DNA from: Campylobacteraceae bacterium
Lineage (GTDB): Bacteria > Campylobacterota > Campylobacteria > Campylobacterales > Sulfurovaceae
Direction of reading: 5' to 3'
Length of the DNA: 35,650 nucleotides
NCBI GenBank assembly: GCA_027034975.1
Contig: JALVWQ010000041.1
Location: 1-35,650, forward strand
Shown here: positions 4,242-29,921 of the stretch, in pieces
Numbering within the stretch: the first letter of the stretch is position 1
How the letters are laid out: each line of letters begins with the position of its first letter
The notes under the pieces: model-generated
What the model saw: only the letters and a program-made list of their open reading frames with translations
What the model was told of the DNA's origin: nothing
The model's database searches: none
Made by a program: the position numbers and the translations under genes

Positions 4242-5339
4242 ATGCTTAAATGGTTAATAAGGGTAATATTTATTGTATTGTTTATACTTGCTGCCTTCTA
4301 TATTACAAAAAAAGAGACTGTACGCTATGAATCAAATAGTATAGCACTTTTAAAAGATCTATCAAAGAAGCAAAAAATTGATATTGGGAATTTACTACTT
4401 GGACAGACATCAAGCACTATGAAAGATTCTAAGGTAATGGAACTTTATATTCGGTCACATGAAATGTTTGACTATATAGATAAAAAATATCATCTTCGAG
4501 AACACTACGCTTCTAAAGAGTTAGATTTTGCTCAAAGGTTATATAAGGACTCAATGTTGCCTATGTTTAAAATGAACGAGAGTAATTTCATGAAAAAATA
4601 TAATGATGATCTCTTAGTAACATATGATGAAGCATCAGGAACAATAGAGTTAAAATTTATACATACAGATCCAAAAATAGCACAAAATATATTAAAAGAT
4701 ATATTGAAGCATGCTGAAGATGTTATTAATCAATTTTCAAGAGAGAATGCAAAAGTTGCTCTTGGATTTATTCAGAAACAAAAACAACAGAAGCGAAAAG
4801 AGTTTATAAATAGTATTAGAAAGTTAATAAATTATCAAAATAAGCATAATACTATTGATCCAACAGTCGATGTAAATCGGAAAACAAAAATTTTGGCAAA
4901 TTTGGAGTCAGAGCTTATTAAATATAAAGTTGAGTACTCTAGTAAGTTAAAAATTTTGAGTCCTAATGCAGCAGAGATTAGAATGCTTCGTGAGACTATT
5001 TCCAGAATTACTGCTTCACTAAATAGGCTTAAAAAAGAGCTTTCAGGTAAAAAAAACAGAAAAGAGCTTAATGTAAATGTTTTTGATTTCCAGATATTAG
5101 AAAGTGATATGGAGTTCGCAAAAGAACTATACCGTCAAACACTTATTAATGAAGAAAAGACAAAAATAGAAGTTTCACAAAAAGCAAAACATATTGTAGT
5201 TGTTTCTCAACCAACTCTTGCGGATGATTATACATATCCAAATAAAGTATGGGATCTTTTTACAGTGATGATTGTATTATTATTTATATATAGTATTATA
5301 ATGACAGGTGTTACAATTGTGCAAAACCATAAAGATTAG
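4242..5339 (+). CDS. kpsE: Capsule export inner-membrane/periplasmic protein (PCP-3 family)
   Basis: Polysaccharide co-polymerase/export protein that spans the periplasm and links the KpsMT transporter to the outer-membrane exit protein. It is 365 residues against about 380 for E. coli KpsE. A single N-terminal membrane segment (LIRVIFIVLFILAAFYI) and a C-terminal one (FTVMIVLLFIYSIIM) bracket a charged, helical, coiled-coil-rich periplasmic domain. A PTLADDYTYPNKVWDL motif, like the conserved proline-rich stretch before the last helix in this family, precedes the C-terminal segment. The ATG directly follows the kpsT stop. The last ~120 codons are duplicated, in decayed form, at 8683-9043. 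No kpsD or kpsF is visible nearby. Confidence 0.92.
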   Translation: MLKWLIRVIFIVLFILAAFYITKKETVRYESNSIALLKDLSKKQKIDIGNLLLGQTSSTMKDSKVMELYIRSHEMFDYIDKKYHLREHYASKELDFAQRLYKDSMLPMFKMNESNFMKKYNDDLLVTYDEASGTIELKFIHTDPKIAQNILKDILKHAEDVINQFSRENAKVALGFIQKQKQQKRKEFINSIRKLINYQNKHNTIDPTVDVNRKTKILANLESELIKYKVEYSSKLKILSPNAAEIRMLRETISRITASLNRLKKELSGKKNRKELNVNVFDFQILESDMEFAKELYRQTLINEEKTKIEVSQKAKHIVVVSQPTLADDYTYPNKVWDLFTVMIVLLFIYSIIMTGVTIVQNHKD

Positions 5340-5414
5340 CAAGGTAAATTCTTTATAAATGCCTGACATAATTATATCTTTGGATGTTATTTAGGTAATA
5401 TTTGTTTATATATT

Positions 5415-5461
5415 ATTAATGATATATTGCAAGAGAGAAAACTTGTTACAATATCATTAAT
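5415..5461 (+). promoter_or_regulatory. 11-bp dyad overlapping a candidate -10 element
   Basis: ATTAATGATAT at 5415-5425 is the exact inverse complement of ATATCATTAAT at 5451-5461, and a TACAAT hexamer (5447-5452) overlaps the right arm. Arm starts are 36 bases apart, the same spacing as the dyad before kpsM, though the arm sequences differ. It lies in the 170-base gap between kpsE and the broken acetyltransferase gene. It could be a relic promoter/operator, a weak RNA hairpin or chance. Confidence 0.3.
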
Positions 5462-5509
5462 TTTGTTTCTAGTGAAAATAGATTTTAAAATTGGAATGTA
5501 GATATAAAA

Positions 5510-6409
5510 GTGAAGAAAACTGTTAGACTCTCATCTCAAGTAAGTATAGCCAAAGATATTAAAGTTGAATTGCCAGTTACGCTTTATGGCGCAGTGCAGG
5601 TAAAGAAAATTGTGGCATAGGTGCATTTAGTTTTATTAACTCAGGTACAACAGTTTATAGTAATACCACGATTGGTAGATATTGTTCAATTGGTAAAAAT
5701 TGTGAAATAGGAGCCTTTGAGTATCCGATTGATTGGCTTAGCACTTCGCCAATTTCGTATAATATGAAGTTGCATTTCCTTGGATACGAAGATAAAATAA
5801 AGCAAAAGAAGATTAAAAGACTAGAACATACATATATTTATTGGAAATGATACATAGATTGGATCTTTGGCAATAATTAAGCGTGGTGTAACTATCGGAG
5901 ATGGAGCAGTTGTAGCTGGTGGAGTGGTGGCACTGAAGATGCCCCCCCGTTTGCTATTGTAGGAGGTGTGCCAGCAAAGGTATTAAAATATAGATTTGAT
6001 GAAAATATAATCGAGCAGCTACTTACTTTAAAGTGGTGGAAGCTAGATATAGAACGGGTTAAAAATGTAGACTTTGATGATATAAAAATGCACTTAAGCA
6101 GATCAAGCAGGTTAAAGTTGATACAGTAAAATTACTTTTAGGTAAATTAAATAAAAAATCAGAGCAACAAAATAAAAAAATTTAATGAATTTTGATGAAG
6201 TTAGTCAAGTAATATCGTCTCGACTTTTAGAGGTAGAGATAGAGCAAAATACAATAGATGATATTTTCACACAGAATAGTAAAATGTATGTAGGCTATGA
6301 TGCTGAAGATGAATATGATCAAATGATATTACATTACAAAGTTGCGGCGATTATTGAGTTAGTGATTTCCGACAAAGAATATCAAGAAAATCGAACACTT
6401 TCTGAATAA
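5510..6409 (+). pseudogene. Decayed copy of the hexapeptide O-acetyltransferase gene
   Basis: This is a degraded paralogue of the intact gene at 9092-10036, recognisable along its length when frames are changed. Matching pieces are [42 protein letters not shown] and LTLKWWKLDIERVKNVDFDD. At least three frameshifts separate them: near 5600 (stop TAG in the first frame), near 5840 and near 5935 (by a C7 run). The probable catalytic His of the intact enzyme (His72 in DHPIDWL) is Tyr here (EYPIDWL). The last 74 codons (ATG 6185 to TAA 6409) remain open. They correspond to the extra C-terminal domain of the intact protein and might still be translated, although no ribosome-binding site is obvious. 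Confidence 0.92.
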
Positions 6410-6477
6410 GCACATAAAAAAATTAAAAAGATATTGAAAATAAAGCAATAAAATATTCAATAAGATTATATATGTGA

Positions 6478-6483
6478 TATAAT
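6478..6483 (+). promoter_or_regulatory. Candidate extended -10 for the cytidylyltransferase-oxidoreductase gene
   Basis: A perfect TATAAT preceded by TGTGA lies 43 bases before the start at 6527, in a very AT-rich leader. The -35 is weak. A private promoter would explain how this gene stays expressed downstream of a dead gene in the operon. Confidence 0.45.
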
Positions 6484-6526
6484 GATATTATATTTCAAAA
6501 AGAGATTTTCTTAAGGATTATGATGG

Positions 6527-7888
6527 ATGAATGAGAAAAAGAAAAAAATTGTTATCACATATGGAACATATGATATGCTACATATAGGACATCTCAATTT
6601 GCTTAAACGAGCTAAAGAGTTGGGTGATTACCTTATTGTAGGTGTTACATCTGAGGATTATGATAGATCACGAGGAAAGCTTAATACTAGTCAAAGCACC
6701 AAGAAACGCGTAAAAGCAATAGAGAAATTAGACTTTGTAGATAAAGTAATTGTAGAAAAACATAAAGGTCAAAAGGCACTAGATATACAAAAGTATGGTG
6801 TTGACATATTCGCAATAGGTGATGATTGGGTCGGTAAATTTGACTACTTAAAGGAGTATTGTGATGTTGTTTACCTTCCAAGAACAGAAGGCATTTCAAG
6901 TACAATGCTGCGAAAAGAGATACAAAAAAAGATTAAAATTGGTGTAATTGGTACAGGAAGAATTGCTAAAAGATTTGTTAAAGAGGCTGGGTATGTGGAT
7001 GATGCAGAAATACGCTCAGTTATGTCAAGAAATATAAAAAATGTCGAGAAGTTTATTGATGGAACTAAAATACAATATGGATTTGATAATATAGATTCTT
7101 TTCTTCAAGACTCTATAGATGCTGTATATATTGCCTCTCCGCATGAGCATCATTTTATGCAGGCAAAACAAGCTTTAGAGGCAGGTAGGCATGTTTTATG
7201 CGAAAAGCCAATTGCTTTAGAGAGCAAACACCTAAAAGAGCTAATTAAACTTGCTCGAAAAAATAATTTAATTTTAATTGAGGCTATTAAGACCGCCTTT
7301 ACTCCAGCATTTGTACAGCTTCAGGAGGAGATTAGTAATGGAGCCATAGGGGAAATAAAAGAGGTTAGGGCAACATTTACAAAACTCATTGATGATAAGG
7401 ATGCAAGAGAGTGGCAAACACCATATGGTGGAGCTACAAATGAGCTAGGAAGCTATCCTCTTCTGCTTGCCCAAAAAATTTTAGGTCCTGCTAAAAAAGT
7501 TGTTTTTTATGACCAAATAGAGAATGGAGTCGATCTTGCAAATAGAATTATATGCACCCACAAGAATGGTGCTATATCAATTTCGACAGTTGGGATTGGA
7601 GCTAAATCTGAAGGATGTGCTATTATTTCTGGAACAAAAGGTTATATTTATATACCAGCACCATGGTGGCTTACAAGAGATTTTTATATCCGTTACGAAG
7701 ACCCAACTAAACAATTGAGTTATCATTATGATTTTCAAGGCGATGGTATACGTTATGAGATATCAGAGTTTTGCACTAGAATAAAAAGAGGCAAGAAAAA
7801 ATCTTCAAGATTAAAATGGAAGGATATGGTAGAGATTAATAGAATAATTTCGAAGTATAATAAAAGAATAAAAGAGAAAGGCAATTAA
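6527..7888 (+). CDS. TagD-like cytidylyltransferase fused to a Gfo/Idh/MocA-type oxidoreductase
   Basis: A 453-residue two-domain enzyme. Residues 8-135 are a nucleotidyltransferase of the glycerol-3-phosphate cytidylyltransferase fold: YGTYDMLHIGH carries the HxGH motif (His19, His22) and RTEGISST the second signature. Residues 138-450 are a Rossmann-type oxidoreductase (GVIGTGRIAKRF; CEKPIAL with the conserved Lys227). A natural reading is a bifunctional enzyme that reduces a keto or aldo precursor and activates the product as a CDP-polyol for the capsule. The order of steps and the substrate are inferences. The TagD-typical WEQK substrate-region motif is replaced by KGQK, so the substrate need not be glycerol-3-phosphate. 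The start at 6527 follows an AAGGA site at 6514-6518. The stop overlaps the start of a dead PLD gene. No counterpart exists in copy B of the duplication. Confidence 0.88.
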   Translation: MNEKKKKIVITYGTYDMLHIGHLNLLKRAKELGDYLIVGVTSEDYDRSRGKLNTSQSTKKRVKAIEKLDFVDKVIVEKHKGQKALDIQKYGVDIFAIGDDWVGKFDYLKEYCDVVYLPRTEGISSTMLRKEIQKKIKIGVIGTGRIAKRFVKEAGYVDDAEIRSVMSRNIKNVEKFIDGTKIQYGFDNIDSFLQDSIDAVYIASPHEHHFMQAKQALEAGRHVLCEKPIALESKHLKELIKLARKNNLILIEAIKTAFTPAFVQLQEEISNGAIGEIKEVRATFTKLIDDKDAREWQTPYGGATNELGSYPLLLAQKILGPAKKVVFYDQIENGVDLANRIICTHKNGAISISTVGIGAKSEGCAIISGTKGYIYIPAPWWLTRDFYIRYEDPTKQLSYHYDFQGDGIRYEISEFCTRIKRGKKKSSRLKWKDMVEINRIISKYNKRIKEKGN

Positions 7889-8412
7889 TGAGACTTTGGA
7901 TTTTTTCCTATTGTTAACTTATTCTCTCTTTAGTTACAGTATTGAGCATTTTTTGATGCCTAAAGATGCTAAACGAGCCGAGGATACTCTTGCGCAATCA
8001 ATTTTGAATGCACAAAACTCTATAGATGTGGCAATGTTTATGATTACAAATAGGAGATTGGCAAATGTACTAAAAAGTGAGCCGAGATAGGTAATGTTAC
8101 TATACGAGTCGTTGCAGATGAAAAGTTTGATATTAATTATCCTAAAGAGTCTAAAGTTCGTTAGTTACTTGCTAAGAAAAATATATATACTTATCATATC
8201 AAAGGAAAAAAGAAAAAGAAAAAAAGTTTGGTGTTATACATGTTAAACTAATAATAGATAAAAAAATAGTTTTTGTGGGGTCAGTAAATTGGACTAAGTC
8301 AGCTTTTAAGTATAACTATGAAATTCTTATTGAAATTATAGATACAACCACTGCTAAGTATTATTAATATTATTTTAAAGATTTACTTCAAAATGCGAAA
8401 CTAGTATATTAG
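7888..8412 (+). pseudogene. Decayed copy of the phospholipase D-like gene
   Basis: This is a broken paralogue of the intact gene at 10067-10633. Shared stretches include SYSIEHFLMPKD, VAMFMITN, the lysine-rich run GKKKKKK and NWTKSAFKYNYEIL. An early TAG follows the SEPR codons near 8088, another TAG interrupts near 8162, a frameshift precedes the HKD region, and a TAA sits near 8366. The HxK part of the motif survives as IHVKLIIDKK, but the protein cannot be made in one piece. Its ATG at 7888 overlaps the upstream stop, so the two genes were once translationally coupled. Confidence 0.9.
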
Positions 8413-8427
8413 ACGAAGGATGTGTAT

Positions 8428-8512
8428 ATGTCATTAATAATTATAGGTCATAGAGGAAGTAAAGCAGAATATTATTACAGATAATCTAAAATATTTTTGC
8501 AATTTGACATAA
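8428..8512 (+). pseudogene. Remnant of a glycerophosphodiester phosphodiesterase gene (internal deletion)
   Basis: The first dozen codons (MSLIIIGHRGSKAE) match the start of the intact GDPD gene at 10605-11345. The sequence then jumps directly to the last codons, ending in TTGACATAA exactly as the intact gene does. About 650 bases are missing, removing all catalytic acids. The flank downstream (atagttgcaaagatttcttt) is shared with the intact copy, which confirms homology. Confidence 0.88.
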
Positions 8513-8569
8513 AAATATAGTTGCAAAGATTTCTTTGTTAGTATTCTAAAGAGAAAATGAAGGGAATGA

Positions 8570-8682
8570 ATGAGTAAGCTAACTAAATTTTTTAAGCACC
8601 CAATACAGTTTTTAGATTGCAGGTAAAGGGAAAAAGAAAGCTATAGAAAAGAAGGTTGTTGCTGCTGATAAAAAGAGATAGA
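8570..8682 (+). pseudogene. 5' remnant of the Lys/Ala-rich glycerophosphotransferase gene
   Basis: Begins ATGAGTAAGCTAACTAAA, like the intact gene at 11405, and follows it through the KHPIQF motif and the start of the Lys/Ala region. It has a frameshift near 8612, lacks the 21-base repeat array found in the intact copy and ends with TAG at about 8679. At that point sequence switches to the duplicated kpsE 3' end. It marks the right endpoint of the duplicated unit. Confidence 0.87.
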
Positions 8683-9043
8683 AGAATGCTTCGTGAAACA
8701 ATTTCTCGAATTACTAGTAATATTAACAAGGTTTAAAGAGAATTTTCTGGTAAAAAGCACAAAAGAGAGTTAAATTCAGATGTGTTTGATTTCCAGATAT
8801 TGCAGGGTGATATGGAGTTTGCAAAAAGAGCTCTATAGAGAAACTTTAATTAACGAAGAGAAGACTAAAATAGAGGTTTCTCAAAAAGCAAATCATATTG
8901 CAGTGGTCTCTAAACCAACATTGGCAGATGATTTTACATATCCAAATAAGGTGTGGGATCTATTTACAGTTGCAATTGTTCTGCTTTTTATTTATAGTGT
9001 TTTGATGACGATTGTTACTATTATACAAAACCATAAGGATTAA
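8683..9043 (+). pseudogene. Duplicated 3' fragment of kpsE
   Basis: Matches codons ~247-365 of kpsE (4242-5339), starting at agaatgcttcgtga. An in-frame TAA replaces a Lys codon near 8733 and one extra A causes a frameshift near 8826. Over the last 87 residues 74 are identical to intact KpsE by hand count, including PNKVWDLFTV and the terminal QNHKD. The fragment lacks the N-terminal membrane anchor and cannot be a working export protein. It marks the left endpoint of the duplicated unit. Confidence 0.92.
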
Positions 9044-9091
9044 GGTGGCTGATTATGCTATTATAGATACAAAAAACTTAAGAGGTTTTTT

Positions 9092-10036
9092 ATGATGAAT
9101 GAATCTAAAATATCGAATTATGCAAAAATCGCAAAAGATTTAGAAGTAGAAGATCCTGTAACCATATATGGTAGTGCAGTAATTAAGAATGAGTGCAGCA
9201 TAAAAAGTTTTAGTTTTATTAATTCTGGGACAACACTTTTTAGAGGAACAAAGGTAGGAAGATACTGTTCGATCGGTAAAAACTGCGAAATAGGTACAGT
9301 TGATCACCCAATAGATTGGCTAAGTACTTCTCCTTTTTCATATAATATGAAAGTACATTTTCCTAAATATGAAAATGTAGTTAATCAAAAAAAGCTCGAT
9401 CGGCCAAAAGAGACCTATATAGGTAATGATGTTTGGATTGGCTCTTTAGTAATTATTAAACGAGGAGTTACTATTGGTGATGGTGCAGTGGTTGCTGGCG
9501 GTGCAGTGGTTACTAAAGATGTACCACCATATGCGATTGTTGGTGGAATACCTGCAAAGATAATTAAATATCGTTTTGATAAAGAGACAATAAAACAACT
9601 ATTAAAGTTAAAGTGGTGGGAATTAGATATCAAGTTATTAAAAGATGTAGATTTTGATGATATTAAGAAAGCGGTAAAACAGATTAAACAGATAAAATTA
9701 GATTCCATAAAATCGGTTTTGGAACATATTGGTAATGCTAAAGATGAGTCTGGCAGTAGAAAGCCACCTATGAGTTTTGATGAACTTAGCGAAATTATTT
9801 CATTACAACTTATAGAAGCTGGCATAGATGAAGATTTGGCAAAAGAGATTCTAGAGGCAAATAAAAAGATGTGTTTAGAGTATAATTTAAATGATGAATA
9901 TGATCAAGTGATACTGTATCATAAAATATCTGCAATAGTTAATGTTATAGAGACAGATAGAAACTATAAAAAAAGTAAAAAAATCACTAACCAGTCGCAT
10001 AAGATTATTCAAAAAATCTTACAAACAAAGCTATAA
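9092..10036 (+). CDS. Hexapeptide-repeat (CatB-like) O-acetyltransferase with an extra C-terminal domain
   Basis: Likely acetyl-CoA-dependent sugar or polyol O-acetyltransferase decorating the capsule, cytoplasmic. Residues ~20-190 form a left-handed beta-helix: [23 protein letters not shown] (His72 probably catalytic, as in xenobiotic/CatB-type acetyltransferases), [40 protein letters not shown] and the terminal [13 protein letters not shown] signature. At 314 residues it is about 100 longer than typical members. The added C-terminal part (about 225-314; [19 protein letters not shown] onward) is helical, acidic and unknown to me. Two ATGs (9092, 9095) follow an AAGAGG site; either may be used. 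It is the intact partner of the pseudogene at 5510-6409. Confidence 0.87.
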
Positions 10037-10066
10037 ACACGGTAAATTTTATTAGGAGGAAAATAT

Positions 10067-10633
10067 ATGAAACATTTTATATTTTTTACACTATTGACTA
10101 ATTTGTTATTTAGTTATAGTATTGAACACTTTTTAATGCCCAAAGATGGCTCAAGGGCTCAAGAATCGATGATAAAAGATATTTTAAGTGCTAATAAAGA
10201 AGTTGATGTAGCAATGTTTATGATTACAAATAAAAAATTAGTTAAAGCACTTAAAGAGAGAGCAAAAAAAGGGAATGTACATATAAATGTAATTGCAGAT
10301 AAAAGCTTTGATATAGACCATTTTAAAGAGTCTAGGGTTAAAAAATTATTAGATACAAAAAATATTTTTGTATATCACCTAAGAGGTAAAAAAAAGAAGA
10401 AGAAAAAATTTGGTATTTTGCACTCTAAGTTGGTAGTTATTGATGATAAAATTGTCTATTTAGGGTCGGCAAACTGGACAAAATCGGCTTTTAAATATAA
10501 CTATGAAATTCTTGTAAAAATTGTTGATGGTGTTACTGCAAAGTTATATAAATATTATTTTGAAGAGATGATGCAAAATGCATGTTATTTAAAAGGAAAA
10601 AGTAGTGAAGGTTATAGGGCACAGAGGAAATAA
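10067..10633 (+). CDS. Exported phospholipase D-like phosphodiesterase (single HKD motif)
   Basis: A 188-residue PLD-superfamily protein with an N-terminal signal-like segment (MKHFIFFTLLTNLLFS) pointing to the periplasm. It has one HKD motif, HSKLVVIDDKIVYLGSANW (His119, Lys121, Asp126, Gly133, Ser134, Asn136), so it should work as a dimer, as in the Nuc-type subfamily. A run of seven lysines (about 104-110) precedes the motif. A strong AGGAGG site (10054-10059) decides the ATG at 10067. Known relatives cleave phosphodiesters in nucleic acids or lipids. Next to a GDPD gene and glycerophosphotransferases, a role in trimming or turning over a phosphodiester-linked capsule polymer or its lipid anchor is possible, but is inference. 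The gene overlaps the next by 29 bases. Confidence 0.85.
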   Translation: MKHFIFFTLLTNLLFSYSIEHFLMPKDGSRAQESMIKDILSANKEVDVAMFMITNKKLVKALKERAKKGNVHINVIADKSFDIDHFKESRVKKLLDTKNIFVYHLRGKKKKKKKFGILHSKLVVIDDKIVYLGSANWTKSAFKYNYEILVKIVDGVTAKLYKYYFEEMMQNACYLKGKSSEGYRAQRK

Positions 10634-11345
10634 AGCCGAATTTACAGAAAATACACTAGAGGGGTTTGAATCTGTAATTGCAGATAATAAAATAGATGGG
10701 TTTGAGTTTGATATTATAGTAAGCAAAGAGAAGAAACTAGTTATTTCGCATGATTATTTTTTAAAAGATAAGAATGATAAAAAACACATGCTTTACAATT
10801 TAACTCATGATAAGATGCTATCTTTATCAAAAGATAATCCACATATAAAAGAAAAAATAGGTAATCCATACCCACTACTTGAAGATCTATTTGCATTAAT
10901 ATCATCAAAAAAATATACTAAGTTGGTGCTTCTAGAAATAAAATCTATACCGTCAAAAATAGATATGCCTTTATCAATTACAGAAACTATTGCAAAAATC
11001 CATTTGCTAATTGCACAATATAGCTTAGAAAAAGTTGTAAAAATCATCTCTTTTGATTATAGGATCATTAAAGAATCATATAAACAGAATAGAGAAATAG
11101 AAATAGGATTAATATTGCATCGTAATCTTATACCCCTAGATGAAATTGTAAAATCACTAAACCTTTCTTTGTTAATTGTGGAAAAGAATTGGATTACTCA
11201 AGAACAAATTAAAGAAATAAAAAGAGATAATATTGAGATTTTTACATGGACAGTAAACACTCAGAATGAATATGATAGATTGAAACAAATTGGTGTGAAT
11301 GGTATTATTACAGATAATCCAAAATATTTTTGCAATTTGACATAA
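10605..11345 (+). CDS. Glycerophosphodiester phosphodiesterase family protein
   Basis: A TIM-barrel GDPD-family enzyme, 246 residues, normally hydrolysing glycerophosphodiesters to glycerol-3-phosphate and an alcohol. Catalytic residues are visible: His6-Arg7 in IGHRG, Glu34 and Asp36 in FEFDI, His49 in SHDYF, plus EIKS near the middle and ITDNP at the end. No signal peptide, so it is cytoplasmic. The start is GTG 10605, inside the upstream PLD gene, chosen because GDPD domains begin a few residues before HRG. In this cluster it could supply glycerol-3-phosphate for CDP-glycerol synthesis from phospholipid head groups. Alternatively it may recycle capsule fragments. Both are inferences. Confidence 0.92.
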   Translation: MKVIGHRGNKAEFTENTLEGFESVIADNKIDGFEFDIIVSKEKKLVISHDYFLKDKNDKKHMLYNLTHDKMLSLSKDNPHIKEKIGNPYPLLEDLFALISSKKYTKLVLLEIKSIPSKIDMPLSITETIAKIHLLIAQYSLEKVVKIISFDYRIIKESYKQNREIEIGLILHRNLIPLDEIVKSLNLSLLIVEKNWITQEQIKEIKRDNIEIFTWTVNTQNEYDRLKQIGVNGIITDNPKYFCNLT

Positions 11346-11404
11346 AAAATATAGTTGCAAAGATTTCTTTGTTACTATTTTAAAGAGAAAATGAAAGGGT
11401 ATGA

Positions 11405-12910
11405 ATGAGTAAGCTAACTAAACTTTTTAAGCACCCAATACAGTTTTTTTTAGATGCCGGCAAAGGGAAAAAGAAAGCTGCTGAAAAGAAAGCTATAGAA
11501 AAGAAAATTGCTGCTGCTGAGAAAAAAGCTGTTGCTGCTGAGAAAAAAGCTGCTGCTGCTGAGAAAAAAGCTGTTGCTGCTGAGAAAAAAGCTGCTGCTG
11601 CTGAGAAAAAAGCTGCAGAAAAGAAAGCTGCTGCTGATAAAAAAGAGACAGAAACGAAAGGAACTAAAACAATGTTAGCATCAATTATTAAGAGCATAAT
11701 TCCAGTTTCAAATGTGAATCTATCGCATATAGAAATAGTATTATACTTTGATGGAAAGATGGGAAATATATACCAAGTACAACAGTGGATAGGAACTCTT
11801 AATGAGCTTCACAAGAAAAAACCAATTTTGATTATTACAAGGGTAAAAGAAGTGTATGATTGGTTATCTGCACATACAGATTTTATAGTTGTTTATTGCC
11901 GTACTATCAATGATGTAATAGAGTTAAATGAAGAGAATAATTTCAAATGTATACTCTATGTAAATAACGGTGCAAAGAATTTTCAATCGTTAATCAATGG
12001 AAGGGCATTACATGTCCATATAAATCATGGAGAGAGTGATAAAACATCTACTATAACAAATCAATCAAAAGCGTATGATTATGTATTTATTGTTGGTGAT
12101 GCCGCATATGATAAGTACTACTTAAATCTTATTAAGAAAGATATGAGTAAATATATTAAAGTTGGTCGTCCTCAATTAGAACATATCGAAAGAATACCTC
12201 CGTTTGACTCTGGTTATGTAGAAATTCCTACTGTTGAAGAAAATTCATTAATGAGTCAAGAAAATGCGCAAAAAGTCCCTAGAAAAGTTATACTATACGC
12301 TCCAACGTGGGAAGGTACCCATGAGTCTATGAATTTTACCTCTTTAAATGATTTTGGAATGGCTATTGTACAGCAACTCTTGGCACATCCAGATTACTAT
12401 TTAGTTTATAAACCACATCCAAATACTGGATCGCGAGACTCTTTAACTAAAAAGATCAATGAGTCAATTATTAAGTTACTAGATAAGAACAGTAAAGGGA
12501 AAGCTATTTTAGGTGGGGATATTAACTCTTTATACGAACATATAGATTTAGCAATATTTGATAACTCTGCAGTTGCTATAGATTATTTACTAGCAGATAA
12601 ACCAATGCTAATGACAGATATGTTTTATAAAGTTAAAGATAGAGAGAGCAAACCAACAATTGTTAAAGCTGCAAGAATGATAACAGAGAGAGAAATGTAT
12701 GGTATTCCAATGATTGTTGCTGATGAATTAGAGAACGATAATCTGAAGGATGAACGAAATAAGGTTCGTAGATACTTTTTAGGAGACTTTAATTATGCAA
12801 AAAAGGAGAGTACTCATAAATTTATATCTACACTATTTGATATTTGCGATGAGAGGGATCACCTTGTAGATAATCTAAAAAAAATAAATGAAGATTACAC
12901 GATACTTTAA
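11405..12910 (+). CDS. CDP-glycerol glycerophosphotransferase-like protein with a Lys/Ala repeat region
   Basis: A 501-residue protein. Residues ~20-80 are a Lys/Ala/Glu heptad-like repeat (AAEKKAV/AAEKKAA units), predicted long charged helix or coiled coil. Residues ~95-490 resemble the TagB/TagF (Glyphos_transf) fold: ILYAPTWEGTHESMN, YKPHPNTGSR, and LAIFDNSAVAIDYLLADKPM with the conserved Asp/Ser-Asp-rich donor site, plus an acceptor-side HINHGES. The family transfers polyol phosphate from CDP-polyols, building teichoic-acid-like chains. The basic helix could tether the enzyme to the inner membrane or to a partner (inference). Start at ATG 11405 after AAAGGG; the ATG at 11401 runs into a stop at once. 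Its 5' end is duplicated at 8570-8682. Confidence 0.85.
   Translation: MSKLTKLFKHPIQFFLDAGKGKKKAAEKKAIEKKIAAAEKKAVAAEKKAAAAEKKAVAAEKKAAAAEKKAAEKKAAADKKETETKGTKTMLASIIKSIIPVSNVNLSHIEIVLYFDGKMGNIYQVQQWIGTLNELHKKKPILIITRVKEVYDWLSAHTDFIVVYCRTINDVIELNEENNFKCILYVNNGAKNFQSLINGRALHVHINHGESDKTSTITNQSKAYDYVFIVGDAAYDKYYLNLIKKDMSKYIKVGRPQLEHIERIPPFDSGYVEIPTVEENSLMSQENAQKVPRKVILYAPTWEGTHESMNFTSLNDFGMAIVQQLLAHPDYYLVYKPHPNTGSRDSLTKKINESIIKLLDKNSKGKAILGGDINSLYEHIDLAIFDNSAVAIDYLLADKPMLMTDMFYKVKDRESKPTIVKAARMITEREMYGIPMIVADELENDNLKDERNKVRRYFLGDFNYAKKESTHKFISTLFDICDERDHLVDNLKKINEDYTIL
11507..11611 (+). repeat. 21-bp coding minisatellite (five units)
   Basis: Five units of the pattern gct-g(c/t)t-gct-gct-gag-aaa-aaa, the first beginning att. 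Units 2-3 (11528-11569) and 4-5 (11570-11611) are identical 42-base pairs, indicating duplication of a dimer. The unit is a multiple of three, so copy changes keep the frame and change the length of the Lys/Ala helix. The decayed copy at 8641-8680 has no such array, so it expanded after the duplication or was lost there. Confidence 0.93.
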
Positions 12911-12941
12911 AATTTATATATGAAATGCGAGGTGTAACATA

Positions 12942-13410
12942 ATGAAAAAAAGAAAACTATTATCACCTACGGAACCTTCTTTGATATGTTTCATATTGGA
13001 CACTTAAAGCTTTTAAAGAGGCTCAAAAAGATGGGAGATGAGCTTATAGTTGCTGTTTCAATGGATAAATTTAATGAAGGCAAGGGAAAAAGGTTATGAT
13101 TTCTTATAGGCAAAGAGCCAAAATAGTGAAAAGTATAAAGTATGTTGATAAAGTTATCCCAGAAAAAAATTGGGAGCAAAAAGTTAAGGATGTAAAAAAA
13201 TATAAAGTTGATATTTTTGCCATAGGAGACGATTGGAAAGGTAAATTTGATTTTTTGCAAAAGTATTGCGAAGTTGTCTATTTACCAAGAATGAAAAATA
13301 TATCTACTACTAAGCTAAAAAAGTCTCTAACTAACTTTATATCAATTCCAAAAGAAGATATTATGAATGCTTTTAAAATATTGGAAGCTCTAAGAAAAGA
13401 TTTAGGATAA
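12942..13410 (+). pseudogene. tagD: Glycerol-3-phosphate cytidylyltransferase (TagD-type), frameshifted
   Basis: A TagD homologue that would make CDP-glycerol from CTP and glycerol-3-phosphate. Conserved parts are FHIGHLKLLKR (HxGH), PEKNWEQK, DIFAIGDDWKGKFDFL and LPRMKNISTTKL. It is closer to genuine TagD than the fused domain at 6527, because WEQK and GDDWKGKFDFL are kept. Two single-base losses break it. One lies in the A-run just after the ATG at 12942, so the start is out of frame with ITYGT. The other lies in an A5 run near 13091, where the frame ends in TGA. The active-site GTFD motif also has one extra Phe (GTFFDMF). The 3' part is open from ATG 13096. True decay or homopolymer sequencing errors are both possible. 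Confidence 0.8.
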
Positions 13411-13418
13411 GTTTTATC

Positions 13419-14597
13419 ATGCTAAGCAGATTTTTACGAAACAGAAAAAGAAAGAGTAAGTTTGTATCCTATTTAGATTCATTGTTTCCTAAGGATAAAA
13501 ATAAAATCTTACTTGTTGTTAAAGATAGAACATATTTCTCAGGAAACCTAAGGGTTGTATTGGAGTCTTTTTTAAATAATACTGATAAAAAACTGTATAT
13601 ATACAAAGATGGAGTATGTAATCAAAATATTATAAAAGAACTAGAGATACTGGGTGTTGTTGTGCTTTCAGGGTTTTCTATACGGGCAGTATGGCATATA
13701 GTGACCTCTGGTTTGGTAATTTTGTCACATAGTCCAAGGGATGCACATATTACAAAAAAAATAAGAAGCCGTAAAGTAGTAAATTTATGGCATGGTGCAG
13801 TGTTTAAAAAAATTGAGTTTTTAATGGATGGGATTGATCCAGAAAAATACAGTTTGATGCAAAATAATAGCACTCTTTATGATTTAATTGTTGCTAGTAG
13901 TAAAGAAGACAAAAAAAGAATTATGAAGGCTTTTGGTGTGTCTAGCAATAAAGTGTCCATCACAGGCCTACCTAGATATGAGATACTAAAAGATTCATAT
14001 ATAGCTAGTTTCTATTTGAAGCAACAAGAGAATGTAGTAAAGAAATTAAAAGGGAATAGGAAATTAGTTTTATATGCTCCTACCTTTAGAGAGTCTAGTG
14101 AATCACCACTAAAGCAGATTACGAAAGACGAGTGGATTAAGCTTAATCGTTTTGCAGAAATAAATGAGATTGTATTTGGAATTCGTCCACATCCATATGA
14201 TAAAGAATCTATAAACATAAAAGATAATTTTTATTTTTTTAGACATGATGATTTTCCTGAAACAAATCTATTGTTAAAAAATGTAGATATATTAATTGTA
14301 GACTACTCTAGCATATGGATAGATTATCTATTGTTGAATCGACCAATAATAGGGTTTGCTAAAGATTTTCAAAAATATATAAGTAATGAAAGAGCATTTA
14401 GTTATGATTTTAAATCTATTTTTCCATCAACATTTACTACAACTATTGAAGATTTGATGATGGAAATTAAAAAAATGCTTAAAGAGGATGTAGAAATAAA
14501 CTATGAACAGACTTTAAAAATATACCATGAGTATAATCTAAATGATAATTTCAGAGAAAAGATTTATACTGAAATAGTAAAACTAGATAAAAAGTGA
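13419..14597 (+). CDS. CDP-glycerol:glycerophosphate glycerophosphotransferase (TagB/TagF family)
   Basis: A 392-residue Glyphos_transf-family enzyme expected to transfer glycerol-phosphate (or another polyol phosphate) from its CDP form to a growing or priming acceptor at the inner membrane. Motifs are LWHGAVFKKIEF (catalytic-His WHG region), VASSKEDKKRIMKAFGV, ITGLPRYEIL, LYAPTFRES, IRPHPYDKES, and VDILIVDYSSIWIDYLLLN (donor site D-Y-S-S). All are classic TagB/TagF elements, better conserved than in the gene at 11405. It lacks the membrane and extra domains of long TagF polymerases, so primase or short polymerase is equally likely. The ATG lies 8 bases after the tagD stop, with an AGGATAAG site. 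This is the strongest evidence for a teichoic-acid-like capsule. Confidence 0.92.
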   Translation: MLSRFLRNRKRKSKFVSYLDSLFPKDKNKILLVVKDRTYFSGNLRVVLESFLNNTDKKLYIYKDGVCNQNIIKELEILGVVVLSGFSIRAVWHIVTSGLVILSHSPRDAHITKKIRSRKVVNLWHGAVFKKIEFLMDGIDPEKYSLMQNNSTLYDLIVASSKEDKKRIMKAFGVSSNKVSITGLPRYEILKDSYIASFYLKQQENVVKKLKGNRKLVLYAPTFRESSESPLKQITKDEWIKLNRFAEINEIVFGIRPHPYDKESINIKDNFYFFRHDDFPETNLLLKNVDILIVDYSSIWIDYLLLNRPIIGFAKDFQKYISNERAFSYDFKSIFPSTFTTTIEDLMMEIKKMLKEDVEINYEQTLKIYHEYNLNDNFREKIYTEIVKLDKK

Positions 14598-17989: not shown

Positions 17990-18074
17990 TGGTGCGGATG
18001 AGAGGAGTCGAACCTCCACGCCTTGCGGCACTAGATCCTAAGTCTAGCGTGTCTGCCAGTTCCACCACATCCGC
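17990..18074 (-). tRNA. tRNA-Leu (UAG)
   Basis: 85 bases on the minus strand including encoded CCA. The acceptor GCGGATG pairs with CATCCGC, discriminator A. The anticodon stem CTAGA/TCTAG encloses loop CTTAGGA (anticodon TAG). A class II variable arm and the T-loop sequence GGTTCGACTCC are present. Last gene of the tRNA operon. Confidence 0.96.
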
Positions 18075-18077
18075 AGG

Positions 18078-18154
18078 TGGTACACCCGTTAGGATTCGAA
18101 CCTAAGACCGCCCGCTTAGAAGGCGGGTGCTCTATCCAGCTGAGCTACGAGTGC
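18078..18154 (-). tRNA. tRNA-Arg (UCU)
   Basis: 77 bases with encoded CCA. Anticodon stem CCCGC/GCGGG, loop CTTCTAA (anticodon TCT), T-loop GGTTCGAATCC. Acceptor GCACTCG pairs with CGGGTGT, including a G-U first pair. Only three bases separate it from tRNA-Leu. Confidence 0.96.
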
Positions 18155-18171
18155 ATTGTATAATAATTTAG

Positions 18172-18248
18172 TGGTACGCCAGAGAGGACTTGAACCCCTA
18201 ACCCTCTGATCCGAAGTCAGATGCTCTATCCAGTTGAGCCACTGGCGC
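18172..18248 (-). tRNA. tRNA-Arg (UCG)
   Basis: 77 bases with encoded CCA. Acceptor GCGCCAG/CTGGCGT, anticodon stem TCTGA/TCAGA, loop CTTCGGA (anticodon TCG), T-loop GGTTCAAGTCC. Reads CGA/CGG codons. Confidence 0.95.
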
Positions 18249-18269
18249 TCGGTCGGGTTAAAAATCAAA

Positions 18270-18346
18270 TGGGGTAGGCGATGGGACTCGAACCCACGAC
18301 AACCAGTGCCACAAACTGGCGCTCTACCAACTGAACTACGCCTACC
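18270..18346 (-). tRNA. tRNA-His (GUG)
   Basis: Includes an encoded G at position -1 opposite discriminator C73, the tRNA-His identity pair, and encoded CCA. Anticodon stem CCAGT/ACTGG, loop TTGTGGC (anticodon GTG). Confidence 0.96.
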
Positions 18347-18408
18347 ATATAATAATATGAGCGACCAAAATCTATTACTAAATTATTAAAAAAGTACATA
18401 TTTTACAA

Positions 18409-18485
18409 TGGTCGGAGTGAAAGGACTCGAACCTTCGACCCCCTGGTCCCAAACCAGGTGCGCTACCAGACTGCGCTACACTCCG
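18409..18485 (-). tRNA. tRNA-Pro (UGG)
   Basis: 77 bases with encoded CCA. Acceptor CGGAGTG/CACTCCG, anticodon stem CCTGG/CCAGG, loop TTTGGGA (anticodon TGG). First gene of the operon after the promoter at 18503-18531. Confidence 0.96.
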
Positions 18486-26867: not shown

Positions 26868-27833
26868 ATGAGTAGCGTAAAAAACTTTGCATTAATAGGG
26901 GCGAGTGGATATATCGCTCCAAGACATATGAAAGCGATAAAAGATACAGGCAATGAGTTAGTCGTTGCTTATGACCCATATGATGGAATAGGGATAATGG
27001 ATTCTAACTTTCCACAAGCAGAGTTCTTTACAGAGGCAGAGCGGTTTGAAGATTTCCTCTCGAAGTGGAGACGCAGTGGGGAGAGAATGGATTATATAAG
27101 TATTATGACTCCAAACTATCTGCATAAAAGCCATATTCGACTAGCACTAGAGAATGGTTCAGATGCCATATGTGAAAAACCACTAGTGCTTAATCCTAGT
27201 GATATCAATGAATTAAAAGAGATAGAAGAGCTTACAGGCAAAAGAGTCTATAATATCCTACAGCTAAGGCTCCATGAATCTATTATAGCACTCAAAGAGA
27301 AAGTAGCAAAAGAGATAGAAGAGGATCCAAATAAAATATACGATATAGACTTAACATACCTTACAAGCCGTGGAAAGTGGTACTTTGAGAGCTGGAAAGG
27401 GAAAGAGGAGAAAAGTGGTGGATTGGCTTCGAATATTGGTGTACACTTCTATGATATGCTTACATGGATATTTGGCGAAGTAGAGGAGAATGTAGTTCAC
27501 CTAAAAAGAGCAGATGCAAGTGCTGGGTACTTTAAACTCAAGAATGCAAAGGTAAGATGGTTCTTAAGTGTAAACTACGACTACATCCCTGATAGTGTGA
27601 AAGCTCAGGGACAAAGAACCTATAGAAGCATAACAGTAGATGGAGAAGAGATAGAGTTTAGCGGCGGCTTTACAGAACTGCATACAAGAAGTTACGAAGA
27701 GATACTCAAAGGCAATGGCTTTGGATTGGATGAGGCAAGAGGCTCTATAGAGATTGTATCGACTATTCGTAATCTTCAGCCTCTTGGACTGAAGGGAGAG
27801 TTTCATCCATTTTGTAGAAAGGTAGAAGAGTGA
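26868..27833 (+). CDS. wbpB: UDP-GlcNAc-uronate 3-dehydrogenase (Gfo/Idh/MocA family)
   Basis: WbpB/WlbA oxidises the 3-hydroxyl of UDP-N-acetylglucosaminuronate, giving the 3-keto sugar for amination by WbpE. 321 residues: Rossmann FALIGASGYIAPRHMKAIKD, ISIMTPNYLHKSHI, CEKPLVLNPSD with conserved Lys104, and GGLASNIGVHFYDMLTWIFG with the conserved His of the active site. The YIAPRHMKAI and SGGLASNIGVH stretches are specific to the WlbA/WbpB group. Its last codons (RKVEE) are encoded by repeat block R2, and its TGA overlaps a GTG of the inserted downstream gene. Confidence 0.93.
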   Translation: MSSVKNFALIGASGYIAPRHMKAIKDTGNELVVAYDPYDGIGIMDSNFPQAEFFTEAERFEDFLSKWRRSGERMDYISIMTPNYLHKSHIRLALENGSDAICEKPLVLNPSDINELKEIEELTGKRVYNILQLRLHESIIALKEKVAKEIEEDPNKIYDIDLTYLTSRGKWYFESWKGKEEKSGGLASNIGVHFYDMLTWIFGEVEENVVHLKRADASAGYFKLKNAKVRWFLSVNYDYIPDSVKAQGQRTYRSITVDGEEIEFSGGFTELHTRSYEEILKGNGFGLDEARGSIEIVSTIRNLQPLGLKGEFHPFCRKVEE

Positions 27834-28201: not shown

Positions 28202-28773
28202 ACCCTTCTACCTTCTACCTTCACCCTTCATCCTATGTTGATGACAATGTTCAAATAGGAGAAAACACTAAAATTTGGCATTTTAACCATATTTTACCTC
28301 AAACAGTTATAGGCAAAGATTGCTCTTTTGGACAAAATTGTGTGGTTGGTCCAAGGGTCAATGTTGGCAATGGTGTAAAGGTGCAGAATAATGTCTCTAT
28401 CTATGAGGGGGTAGAGATAGAAGATGATGTCTTTTTAGGCCCTTCGATGGTCTTTACTAATGTTATAAACCCAAGAGCATTTATCCAGAGAAAAGAGGAG
28501 TTTAAAAAGACACTTCTTAAAAAGGGGTGCTCGATTGGAGCAAATGCTACTATTGTTTGTGGTGTGACTATTGGAGAGTACGCACTTATTGGAAGTGGTG
28601 CGGTAGTGAATAGAGATGTAAAGCCTTATGCTTTAATGGTTGGGGTTCCTGCCAAGCAGATTGGTTGGGTTGGAATTTCTGGCAATACTTTAGAGTTCAG
28701 CGAAGATATTGCAGAGGATGAGTTTGCGGTTTATAGGTTAGTTGATGATAATTTAGAGGTGAGAAGAAAATGA
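28198..28773 (+). CDS. wbpD: UDP-2-acetamido-3-amino-uronate N-acetyltransferase
   Basis: WbpD/WlbB acetylates the 3-amino group made by WbpE, giving the UDP-2,3-diacetamido-uronate. 191 residues forming a left-handed beta-helix: [63 protein letters not shown] (family-specific catalytic region), [19 protein letters not shown] and [20 protein letters not shown]. The first ten residues ([10 protein letters not shown]) are encoded by repeat block R3; homologues normally start close to an HPSAYVD-like stretch, so the amino terminus was replaced or extended by the repeat. ATGA overlaps exist with both neighbours. Confidence 0.93.
28203..28234 (-). repeat. Purine-rich repeat, block R3 (right arm, inverted)
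   Basis: cccttctaccttctacctt and cacccttcatcct, the reverse complement of the GAAGGTA-type unit. It lies at the start of wbpD and mirrors block R2, so the four-helix-bundle gene is bracketed by inverted arms. Confidence 0.87.
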
Positions 28774-29921
28774 AGATAGATTTCGCAAAGCTACAGTACC
28801 AGTATCAGCTCTATAAAGAGGAGATAGACCAAGCAATTCATAGTGTATTAGATAAATCAAACTACATTATGGGGCAAGAGGTAAAAGAGCTAGAGGAGAA
28901 TCTACAAAGCTTCACTGGTGCAAAACATGCTATAACTTGTGCGAGTGGAACAGATGCCCTGCTTCTTGCTATGATGGCATTAGATATTAAGCCTGGTGAT
29001 GAAGTAATTACCACACCATTTACCTTTATTGCGACTGCTGAGACTATCGCATTTTTAGGGGCAACTCCTGTATTTGTAGATATTGATGAGCAAACCTACA
29101 ATATTGATGCAAGTAAAATAGAAGAAAAAATCACACCAAAAACTAAAGCGATTATCCCTGTAAGTCTTTATGGACAACCAGCAGATATAGATGCTATACA
29201 AACTATAGCAGATAAATACAATTTAAAAGTTATCATAGATGGTGCACAGAGCTTTGGAAGCACCTATAAAGGAATAACAGACTCTAATTTAGGCGATATA
29301 TCGACTACTAGCTTCTTCCCTGCAAAACCATTAGGTTGCTTTGGAGATGGGGGAGCAGTGTTTACAAATAGTGATGAGCTCGCTGAAAAGATAAGAATGT
29401 TAAGAGTACATGGGCAAAATAAGCGATACCACCATAAATATATCGGTATGGGCGGACGAATGGATACTATTCAGTGTGCTGTTGTGAATGTAAAGCTTAA
29501 ACACTATAAAGATGATTTAGCTAAAAGGCAAGAGGTGGCTCAAAAATATACAGAAAGGTTGAAGGCAGATGGCAGAAGGGAGAAGGGGAGTGAATGGTTA
29601 GAACTTGATCCTTCTACCTTCATCCTTCTACCTTCTACCTCAAACAACACTACATCTGCTTGGGCACAATACTCTATAAGGGTGAAGGGCGAAGGGAGAA
29701 GGGAGAAGGTGCAAGCTCTATTAAAAGAAGCTGGTATTCCAACAGCAGTACACTACCCGATACCTTTGCATCTGCAAGAGTGTTTTTCTTATCTTGGATA
29801 TAAAAAGGGAGATTTTCCAGTGGCTGAAAAAATAAGTAAAGAGATAATGAGCCTGCCAATGAACCCTTATTTAAGCGATGAAGAGATTGGGTATATTGTA
29901 GAGAGGGTTAAAGTCTCTTAA
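28770..29921 (+). CDS. wbpE: Sugar aminotransferase (DegT/DnrJ/EryC1 family)
   Basis: PLP-dependent aminotransferase converting the 3-keto UDP-uronate from WbpB to the 3-amino sugar. 383 residues: [15 protein letters not shown] (phosphate binding), [30 protein letters not shown] (Asp contacting PLP) and [16 protein letters not shown] with Schiff-base Lys186, then [14 protein letters not shown] and [14 protein letters not shown]. Two segments, about residues 262-291 and 303-314, are encoded by the purine-rich repeat family and replace a normally short variable stretch before the AQYSIRV strand. The frame is kept. Whether activity survives is untested, but all catalytic residues lie outside the inserts. 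Confidence 0.93.
29555..29641. repeat. In-frame palindromic repeat element inside wbpE (R4)
   Basis: Left arm 29555-29590 (variants of gaagg, ending agaagggagaaggggag) and right arm 29609-29641 (tccttctaccttcatcctt then ctaccttctacctc) are in opposite orientation, separated by 18 bases. It is a small hairpin-capable element in the coding sequence, lacking any internal gene. It encodes roughly [19 protein letters not shown] and following residues. Confidence 0.85.
29679..29712 (+). repeat. Purine-rich repeat inside wbpE (R5)
   Basis: agggtgaagggcgaaggg followed by agaagggagaaggtgc, in the plus orientation, encoding [18 protein letters not shown] is the same peptide encoded by R2 at the start of the four-helix-bundle gene, so the same repeat was used in the same frame twice. 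Confidence 0.85.

Follow-up and report, generated by a model that had tools for sequence, protein, structure and literature searches.

One gene in the capsule locus of this Campylobacteraceae genome would encode a bifunctional CDP-alcohol synthase for a capsule-type polymer, in which a TagD-like cytidylyltransferase is joined to a Gfo/Idh/MocA oxidoreductase acting as a reductase; in other members of the family an SDR reductase or an aminotransferase encoded nearby appears to replace the oxidoreductase. Judged from sequence and predicted structure, we put the probability of this reading at roughly one half. The partner-replacement rule is the new part of the finding. A CDP-polyol synthase in a capsule locus had already been proposed in a preliminary description of the window (the whole 35,650-nucleotide stretch of DNA analysed here), and that role is supported as a likely one.

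The gene (Table 1) has 453 open codons from its ATG, with many stops on the opposite strand, and an AAGGA ribosome-binding-like site lies at 6513-6517, 9 nt upstream of the start. In an alignment with 133 distinct full-length fused homologs, gathered from several phyla, the window protein matches all 96 positions that are conserved in at least 90% of sequences. Such integrity amid neighboring pseudogenes argues that the gene has been kept by selection. An AlphaFold2 model of the fused protein, built from a 45-row alignment, gave a pLDDT of 92.7 and a pTM of 0.88. The original observation that TagD-like and sugar-oxidoreductase domains share one polypeptide is thus borne out by the intact reading frame, by the TIGR01518 and PF01408/PF22725 matches and by the fused homologs.

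Table 1. Coordinates of the fused gene, its domains and motifs, and neighboring genes and remnants in the window
Feature	Position	Strand	Evidence or remark
Hexapeptide acetyltransferase remnant (copy A), 5' of the fused gene	5500..6460	+	direct repeats D4, D5
Fused TagD-like cytidylyltransferase / Gfo-Idh-MocA oxidoreductase gene	6527..7888	+	453 aa; ORF scan, family-conserved positions 96/96 kept
TagD-like cytidylyltransferase domain	6545..6928	+	aa 7-134; TIGR01518 132.8 bits
Gfo/Idh/MocA oxidoreductase domain	6929..7885	+	aa 135-453; PF01408 and PF22725; Foldseek to 3e9m, 4nhe, KijD10
NAD(P)-binding glycine motif GTGRIA	6950..6967	+	aa 142-147
EKP motif with catalytic-type Lys227	7202..7210	+	Lys kept in 53/133 homologs
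Tyr310, second catalytic-type residue	7454..7456	+	Tyr in 44/53 Lys-keepers
PLD-like gene remnant (copy A)	7889..8413	+	direct repeats D7, D10 with copy B; stops, frameshifts
GDPD gene remnant (copy A)	8428..8510	+	first and last codons only: MSLIIIGHRGSKAEYY then stop; 3' part resembles copy B
Intact GDPD gene (copy B)	10605..11345	+	PF03009 99.8 bits
Glyphos_transf-family (TagF-like) protein, Lys/Ala-rich N-terminus	11405..12910	+	PF04464 46.2 bits
Standalone canonical TagD, WEQK kept	12941..13410	+	two frameshifts in assembly: near start, mid-gene
Glyphos_transf-family CDP-glycerol glycerophosphotransferase homolog	13419..14597	+	PF04464 159.9 bits

The contig carries an ABC-transporter type capsule locus, and the source genome that was searched, of Sulfurovaceae type within Campylobacterota, comprises 1.77 Mb in 68 contigs at 96.9% completeness. 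The family name follows from the near identity of L033, a named Sulfurovum MAG, to L015, which shares the GTDB family. Positions 4973-8680 (copy A) form a decayed tandem copy of positions 8676-11448 (copy B). Apart from the fused gene, copy A consists of remnants with stops and frameshifts, namely the acetyltransferase, PLD and GDPD genes and the 5' end of a GPT-like gene; the fused gene ends and the PLD remnant begins within the sequence TAATG, stop and start overlapping. The acetyltransferase-PLD gap in copy B is 30 bp long and lacks any counterpart of the fused gene, which was therefore either lost from copy B or inserted into copy A. Its description as the sole survivor of copy A stands. 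The accompanying claim, that survival implies need, holds for this genome, whose only other TagD-type match is the frameshifted standalone gene, but membership of the fused gene in the duplicated unit is unsupported.

The tandem duplication at 4973-9042 is old (72-80% identity) and spans the segment kpsE-end, acetyltransferase, PLD and GDPD. Its tail is 94-98% identical between 8470-8613 and 11303-11448, as if converted or re-duplicated later. The reverse strand at positions 2-2575 encodes a secreted, subtilisin-like lipoprotein whose C-terminus carries 48-aa repeats and whose gene runs off the contig end. A cluster of five tRNA genes (Leu, Arg, Arg, His, Pro) at 17990-18485 separates the capsule block from the sugar-nucleotide genes.

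The oxidoreductase half of the fused protein matched PF01408 over aa 136-251 with 87.7 bits (gathering score 24) and PF22725 at aa 262-374. It thus belongs to a family other than those of TarJ and Bcs1, as had been stated for TarJ. In the AlphaFold2 model the second domain resembles 3e9m (TM 0.88 by target, Foldseek), with further Foldseek matches to 4nhe, mammalian dihydrodiol dehydrogenase and KijD10; for the first domain the nearest solved chain is 1coz, the Bacillus subtilis glycerol-3-phosphate cytidylyltransferase (E=4e-38). The KijD10 sugar 3-ketoreductase and the dimeric dihydrodiol dehydrogenase (3rc9, 3rc7, 2o48) share with the window protein the fold, the EKP lysine with a tyrosine, and their spacing, but they are single-domain enzymes with TDP-sugar or diol substrates. 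KijD10 structures include K102 and Y186 mutants according to their titles, and the distance from Lys227 to Tyr310 equals that from K102 to Y186 within 1-2 residues. All three Gfo/Idh/MocA sequence features, GTGRIA, K227 and Y310, were found in the window protein. Taken together with PF01408 and the fold, they lead us to read the domain as catalytically competent: it is probably active in redox, and the protein is probably a member of a redox-competent branch of the fused family.

A view of the fusion as exceptional is not supported: TagD-Gfo fusions constitute a widespread, uncharacterized family. An origin as a by-product of local duplication or of assembly is ruled out by the 133 distinct fused homologs. 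Strong matches occurred in 35 of 175 genomes of the GTDB family of the window, mostly as full fusions, and 43 of 348 Lachnospiraceae-type genomes (the family of genome G191) had a match. A genome scan yielded 80 loci, of which BLAST showed 77 to be full fusions; the loci come from Bacteroidota, Bacillota, Campylobacterota, Fibrobacterota, Spirochaetota, Actinomycetota and two Pseudomonadota MAGs. The plasmid search returned one full-length fused homolog, from R. albus 7, labeled by NCBI only as 'adenylyltransferase/cytidyltransferase family protein'. No description of the fused TagD-Gfo architecture was found in the open-licence papers searched.

Frequent neighbors of the fused genes encode LicD, Glyphos_transf and related transferases, an IspD-like cytidylyltransferase, GDPD, a short-chain dehydrogenase, a class-V aminotransferase (best NCBIfam model PhnW-AepZ) and a HisC/CobD-like aminotransferase. 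Because CDP-activated alcohol phosphates are the substrates of LicD and Glyphos_transf proteins, a CDP-alcohol product fits the fused family. The class-V aminotransferase beside Lys-less fused genes (L037:1467-2540 and relatives) strongly resembles PDB entry 3f0h, at 311 bits; this entry was deposited under the bare title 'Aminotransferase', and such proteins may be the transaminase of the fused-gene pathway. Proteins of about 600-660 aa in which a Gfo/Idh/MocA domain is fused to GDPD were also observed (L108, L085, L165, L199-L202), in several cases directly 3' of the TagD-Gfo fusion, and those retaining EKP occur in several Bacillota genomes.

The family divides according to the lysine of the EKP motif, which is kept in 53 of the 133 homologs and lost in 80, where the motif reads ENP, ETP, EIP, ESP and others. 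We counted as a partner any class-V aminotransferase, HisC-like aminotransferase or SDR reductase encoded within 4 kb of the fused gene. Across the 133 distinct sequences, a partner accompanies 73/80 Lys-losers vs 4/53 Lys-keepers. In the first set of sequences, the lysine was absent from all 73 with an adjacent aminotransferase or SDR and present in 26 of the 29 without one. Three genes break this pattern. L096 is followed at once by a HisC-like aminotransferase gene, and L112 is cut by the contig end and retains an aminotransferase fragment there; L113 is a genuine exception, having lost the lysine without gaining a partner, and fits neither class. A second set, mostly from Bacillota, was gathered after the pattern had been noticed and played no part in noticing it; here an aminotransferase is found near 16 of 21 Lys-losers and 2 of 27 Lys-keepers. 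In the combined set the exceptions are four Lys-keepers with an aminotransferase nearby and seven Lys-losers without a partner, L113 included. The plasmid homolog, with ESP and an aminotransferase, is in line with the rule. GDPD genes show the opposite distribution, being present within 4 kb of 22/53 Lys-keepers (usually directly downstream) vs none of the 80 Lys-losers. This link counts against our proposal, in which GDPD takes no part. The window locus has the lysine and a downstream GDPD and lacks the aminotransferase and SDR partners.

Fisher p-values for the tables were 6e-24 and 6e-11, which overstate the evidence by ignoring the relatedness of the sequences. On the tree the lysine state changed about three times, two of these changes being forced by well-supported branches, and a tree-based pairing test had too few pairs for significance. 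The window protein is the first branch of the Campylobacterota clade, whose remaining members lack the lysine; all of these have an adjoining aminotransferase except L113, the nearest relative of the window gene. The GxG pattern of the nucleotide-binding motif is intact in 53/53 Lys-keepers and 60/80 Lys-losers. Twenty-five positions are at least 95% identical across both Lys groups. The Gfo domain is therefore strongly conserved even without its lysine and should retain some role there that lies outside the proposed model.

Comparison of the SDR-partnered and aminotransferase-partnered Bacteroidota sisters showed their TagD domains to be 88-90% identical, which suggests one shared cytidylylated compound before the diverging step. 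Every fixed difference between these sisters lies in the Gfo domain; the TagD domain is so conserved, however, that no more than about one was to be expected in it, and we give this location little weight as evidence. That two unrelated aminotransferase families occupy this position suggests that a carbonyl is aminated. Phosphonate biosynthesis was rejected as a general reason for the PhnW/AepZ-like aminotransferase, as PEP mutase passes its cut-off in just one of 16 genomes. We found no further conserved oxidase or dehydrogenase around the aminotransferases, which makes it likely that the carbonyl compound is a phosphate from central metabolism or the CDP-linked form of one. Across these gene neighborhoods, the lysine-bearing Gfo domain, the SDR and the aminotransferase almost exclude one another as partners of a single TagD-like domain, and the simplest reading is that they consume one carbonyl in three ways.

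In the pathway that we propose, the N-terminal TagD-like domain would transfer CMP from CTP onto a small phosphorylated compound, most likely of three carbons and probably a ketone, and the C-terminal Gfo/Idh/MocA domain would reduce the carbonyl to an alcohol, acting on this compound or on the CDP-linked form. A TagF-like or LicD-like transferase would then place the alcohol phosphate on a glycan. In the wider family, where the Gfo lysine is gone, the same carbonyl would instead be reduced by the adjoining SDR or aminated by the adjoining aminotransferase. We infer reduction as the direction of the Gfo domain, a C3 substrate and use of the CDP-alcohol for a surface polymer. TagD-type pockets accommodate C2-C3 phosphates. 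For this reason, and because Campylobacter jejuni Cj1437 converts dihydroxyacetone phosphate to serinol phosphate by transamination for capsule decoration (PMC11800397), dihydroxyacetone phosphate is the leading candidate. Cytidylylation before reduction is slightly favored. In C. jejuni HS:5, CTP and fructose-6-P give CDP-6-D-fructose, which is then reduced to CDP-6-D-glucitol (PMC10918830); Bcs1 is a precedent for the opposite order, going by the title of a reference in that paper. Within the window, the TagF-like protein with the Lys/Ala-rich N-terminus is a possible user of the CDP-alcohol, and its homolog follows the fused gene in L113. The long Lys/Ala/Glu-rich N-terminal segment of this protein is made of 21-bp repeats (D2) and is probably variable in length.

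A bolder version, which we hold only tentatively and consider doubtful, is a modular CDP-C3 pathway that runs through an undescribed intermediate such as CDP-dihydroxyacetone, with the finishing enzyme setting the decoration. The built-in Gfo domain would then yield an alcohol, the SDR an alcohol perhaps of other stereochemistry, and the aminotransferase an amine such as serinol phosphate, while a replaced Gfo domain would become a non-catalytic, partner-tuned binding domain.

The Gfo domain might also work in the direction of oxidation: TagD would make CDP-glycerol from glycerol-3-phosphate, and Gfo would turn it into a CDP-ketone or CDP-aldehyde. This product would either serve as the precursor of the polymer or pass to the partner enzymes for amination or for renewed reduction with other stereochemistry. 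Gfo/Idh/MocA enzymes as a family run both ways, aminotransferase partners would need an oxidized substrate, and the same window encodes a Gfo and aminotransferase pair for UDP-sugars (26868-27833 and 28770-29921), which, from established pathway knowledge, we take to be a dehydrogenase followed by an aminotransferase. However, it is precisely the loci with an aminotransferase or SDR, those that would most require oxidation, that have lost the lysine, and a Bacillota clade has lost the GxG motif as well, so that we regard oxidation as unlikely. Reduction remains the preferred direction.

The motifs of the cytidylyltransferase half are HIGH (aa 19-22), R49/K51, EKHKGQK (aa 77-83) and RTEGISST (aa 119-126), which include the nucleotidyl-transfer motifs HxGH and RTxGIS[ST]T, and residues H19, H22, R49, K51, E77, Q82, K83, D100, R119, T120, S124 and S125 are invariant in all 133 homologs. 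TIGR01518, the equivalog model for glycerol-3-phosphate cytidylyltransferase, aligned to aa 9-132 below its curated cut-off of 165.4 bits, and fused TagD domains scored singly gave 105-133 bits. The L106 homolog reached 169 bits as the total of two TagD-like copies; in this protein (L106:4816-6645) both copies stand ahead of the Gfo domain. Standalone TagD controls from similar loci scored 170, 206 and 211 bits, and one standalone TagD, from genome G179, scored 162. By the curated score, then, the TagD-like domain is predicted not to be a standard glycerol-3-phosphate enzyme.

The preliminary description noted a changed WEQK motif and suggested an unusual activated alcohol. The change is real, EKHKGQK standing in its place, and is family-wide, Trp74 of TagD being absent from 133/133 fused homologs. 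As proof of a new substrate it was rejected: Staphylococcus aureus TarD (2b7l) already shares the E-to-G part of the change (GWGQK), and the loss of Trp alone is family-specific. An unusual alcohol is nevertheless plausible, because the fused TagD domains fall below the curated cut-off that the standalone TagD of related loci pass. Two loci, L113 (genome G167) and L070 (a Fibrobacter genome), carry the fused gene together with a canonical standalone TagD, which suggests different products.

These observations bear on the view that the protein acts on glycerol-3-phosphate like any ordinary cytidylyltransferase of the TagD type, its oxidoreductase domain being inert or structural. The TagD catalytic motifs are indeed intact, with B. 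subtilis TagD as the best structural homolog. The standalone TagD of the window is frameshifted while the TagF-like gene adjoining it is intact, so the fused gene may now supply CDP-glycerol in this strain. Orthologs of this standalone TagD are intact in relatives (L113, P0005, 170 bits; L124). The low single-domain scores, the coexistence of both genes in one locus, the universal absence of Trp74 and the intact Lys, Tyr and GxG motifs of the window protein all argue against this view, leaving it quite unlikely.

As regards known systems, the TagD-like domain shares with TagD/TarD (TIGR01518; 1coz, 2b7l) the fold family, the HxGH, RTxGIS[ST]T, QK and DDW-type motifs, and a capsule- or teichoic-type context. 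It differs in being fused to an oxidoreductase as well as in its score and missing tryptophan, and its family coexists with canonical TagD in some loci. Bcs1 and TarI/TarJ, which produce CDP-ribitol, likewise combine a reductase with a cytidylyltransferase to give a CDP-polyol, Bcs1 also on one polypeptide. They pair an IspD-type cytidylyltransferase with an SDR- or MDR-type reductase. In contrast to their PF01128 and SDR/MDR domains, the window protein has only PF01467 with PF01408/PF22725. HS5.18/HS5.17 of C. jejuni (PMC10918830) provide a Campylobacterota capsule precedent for a paired cytidylyltransferase and reductase, with NADPH and cytidylylation first; however, PF01128 and PF01370 are there on separate genes and the product is a hexitol, whereas the window protein contains neither domain. 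The Lys-losing loci resemble PntC-AEPT of Treponema denticola (6pd1) in coupling a cytidylyltransferase to a class-V aminotransferase, but that protein belongs to a phosphonate pathway, and among the 16 tested genomes with an aminotransferase-type fused locus 15 lack PEP mutase.

By analogy with the capsule locus of pneumococcal serotype 23F, where gtp1 is annotated as a glycerol-2-phosphate dehydrogenase and gtp2 as a nucleotidyl transferase (PMC3493582), the protein could be a CDP-2-glycerol synthase, the fused equivalent of the reductase Gtp1 and the cytidylyltransferase Gtp2, and the symmetric C3 product could, speculatively, suit the loss of Trp74; the pneumococcal CDP-2-glycerol functions (gtp1, gtp2, gtp3) are encoded by separate genes in one locus, and no Gtp3-like phosphotransferase was noticed among the main conserved neighbors of the fused genes. 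We assign this possibility a low probability.

If the proposed reading is true, the TagD-Gfo fusion would represent a further, structurally unrelated route to CDP-activated alcohols, after the Bcs1/TarIJ and Mnp/HS5 pairs. This route would be spread across gut Bacteroidota and Bacillota, Campylobacterota and others. The EKP lysine together with the neighboring gene would then predict whether the glycan of a given strain bears a neutral alcohol phosphate or an amino-alcohol phosphate, and the choice between these decorations would alter its surface charge.
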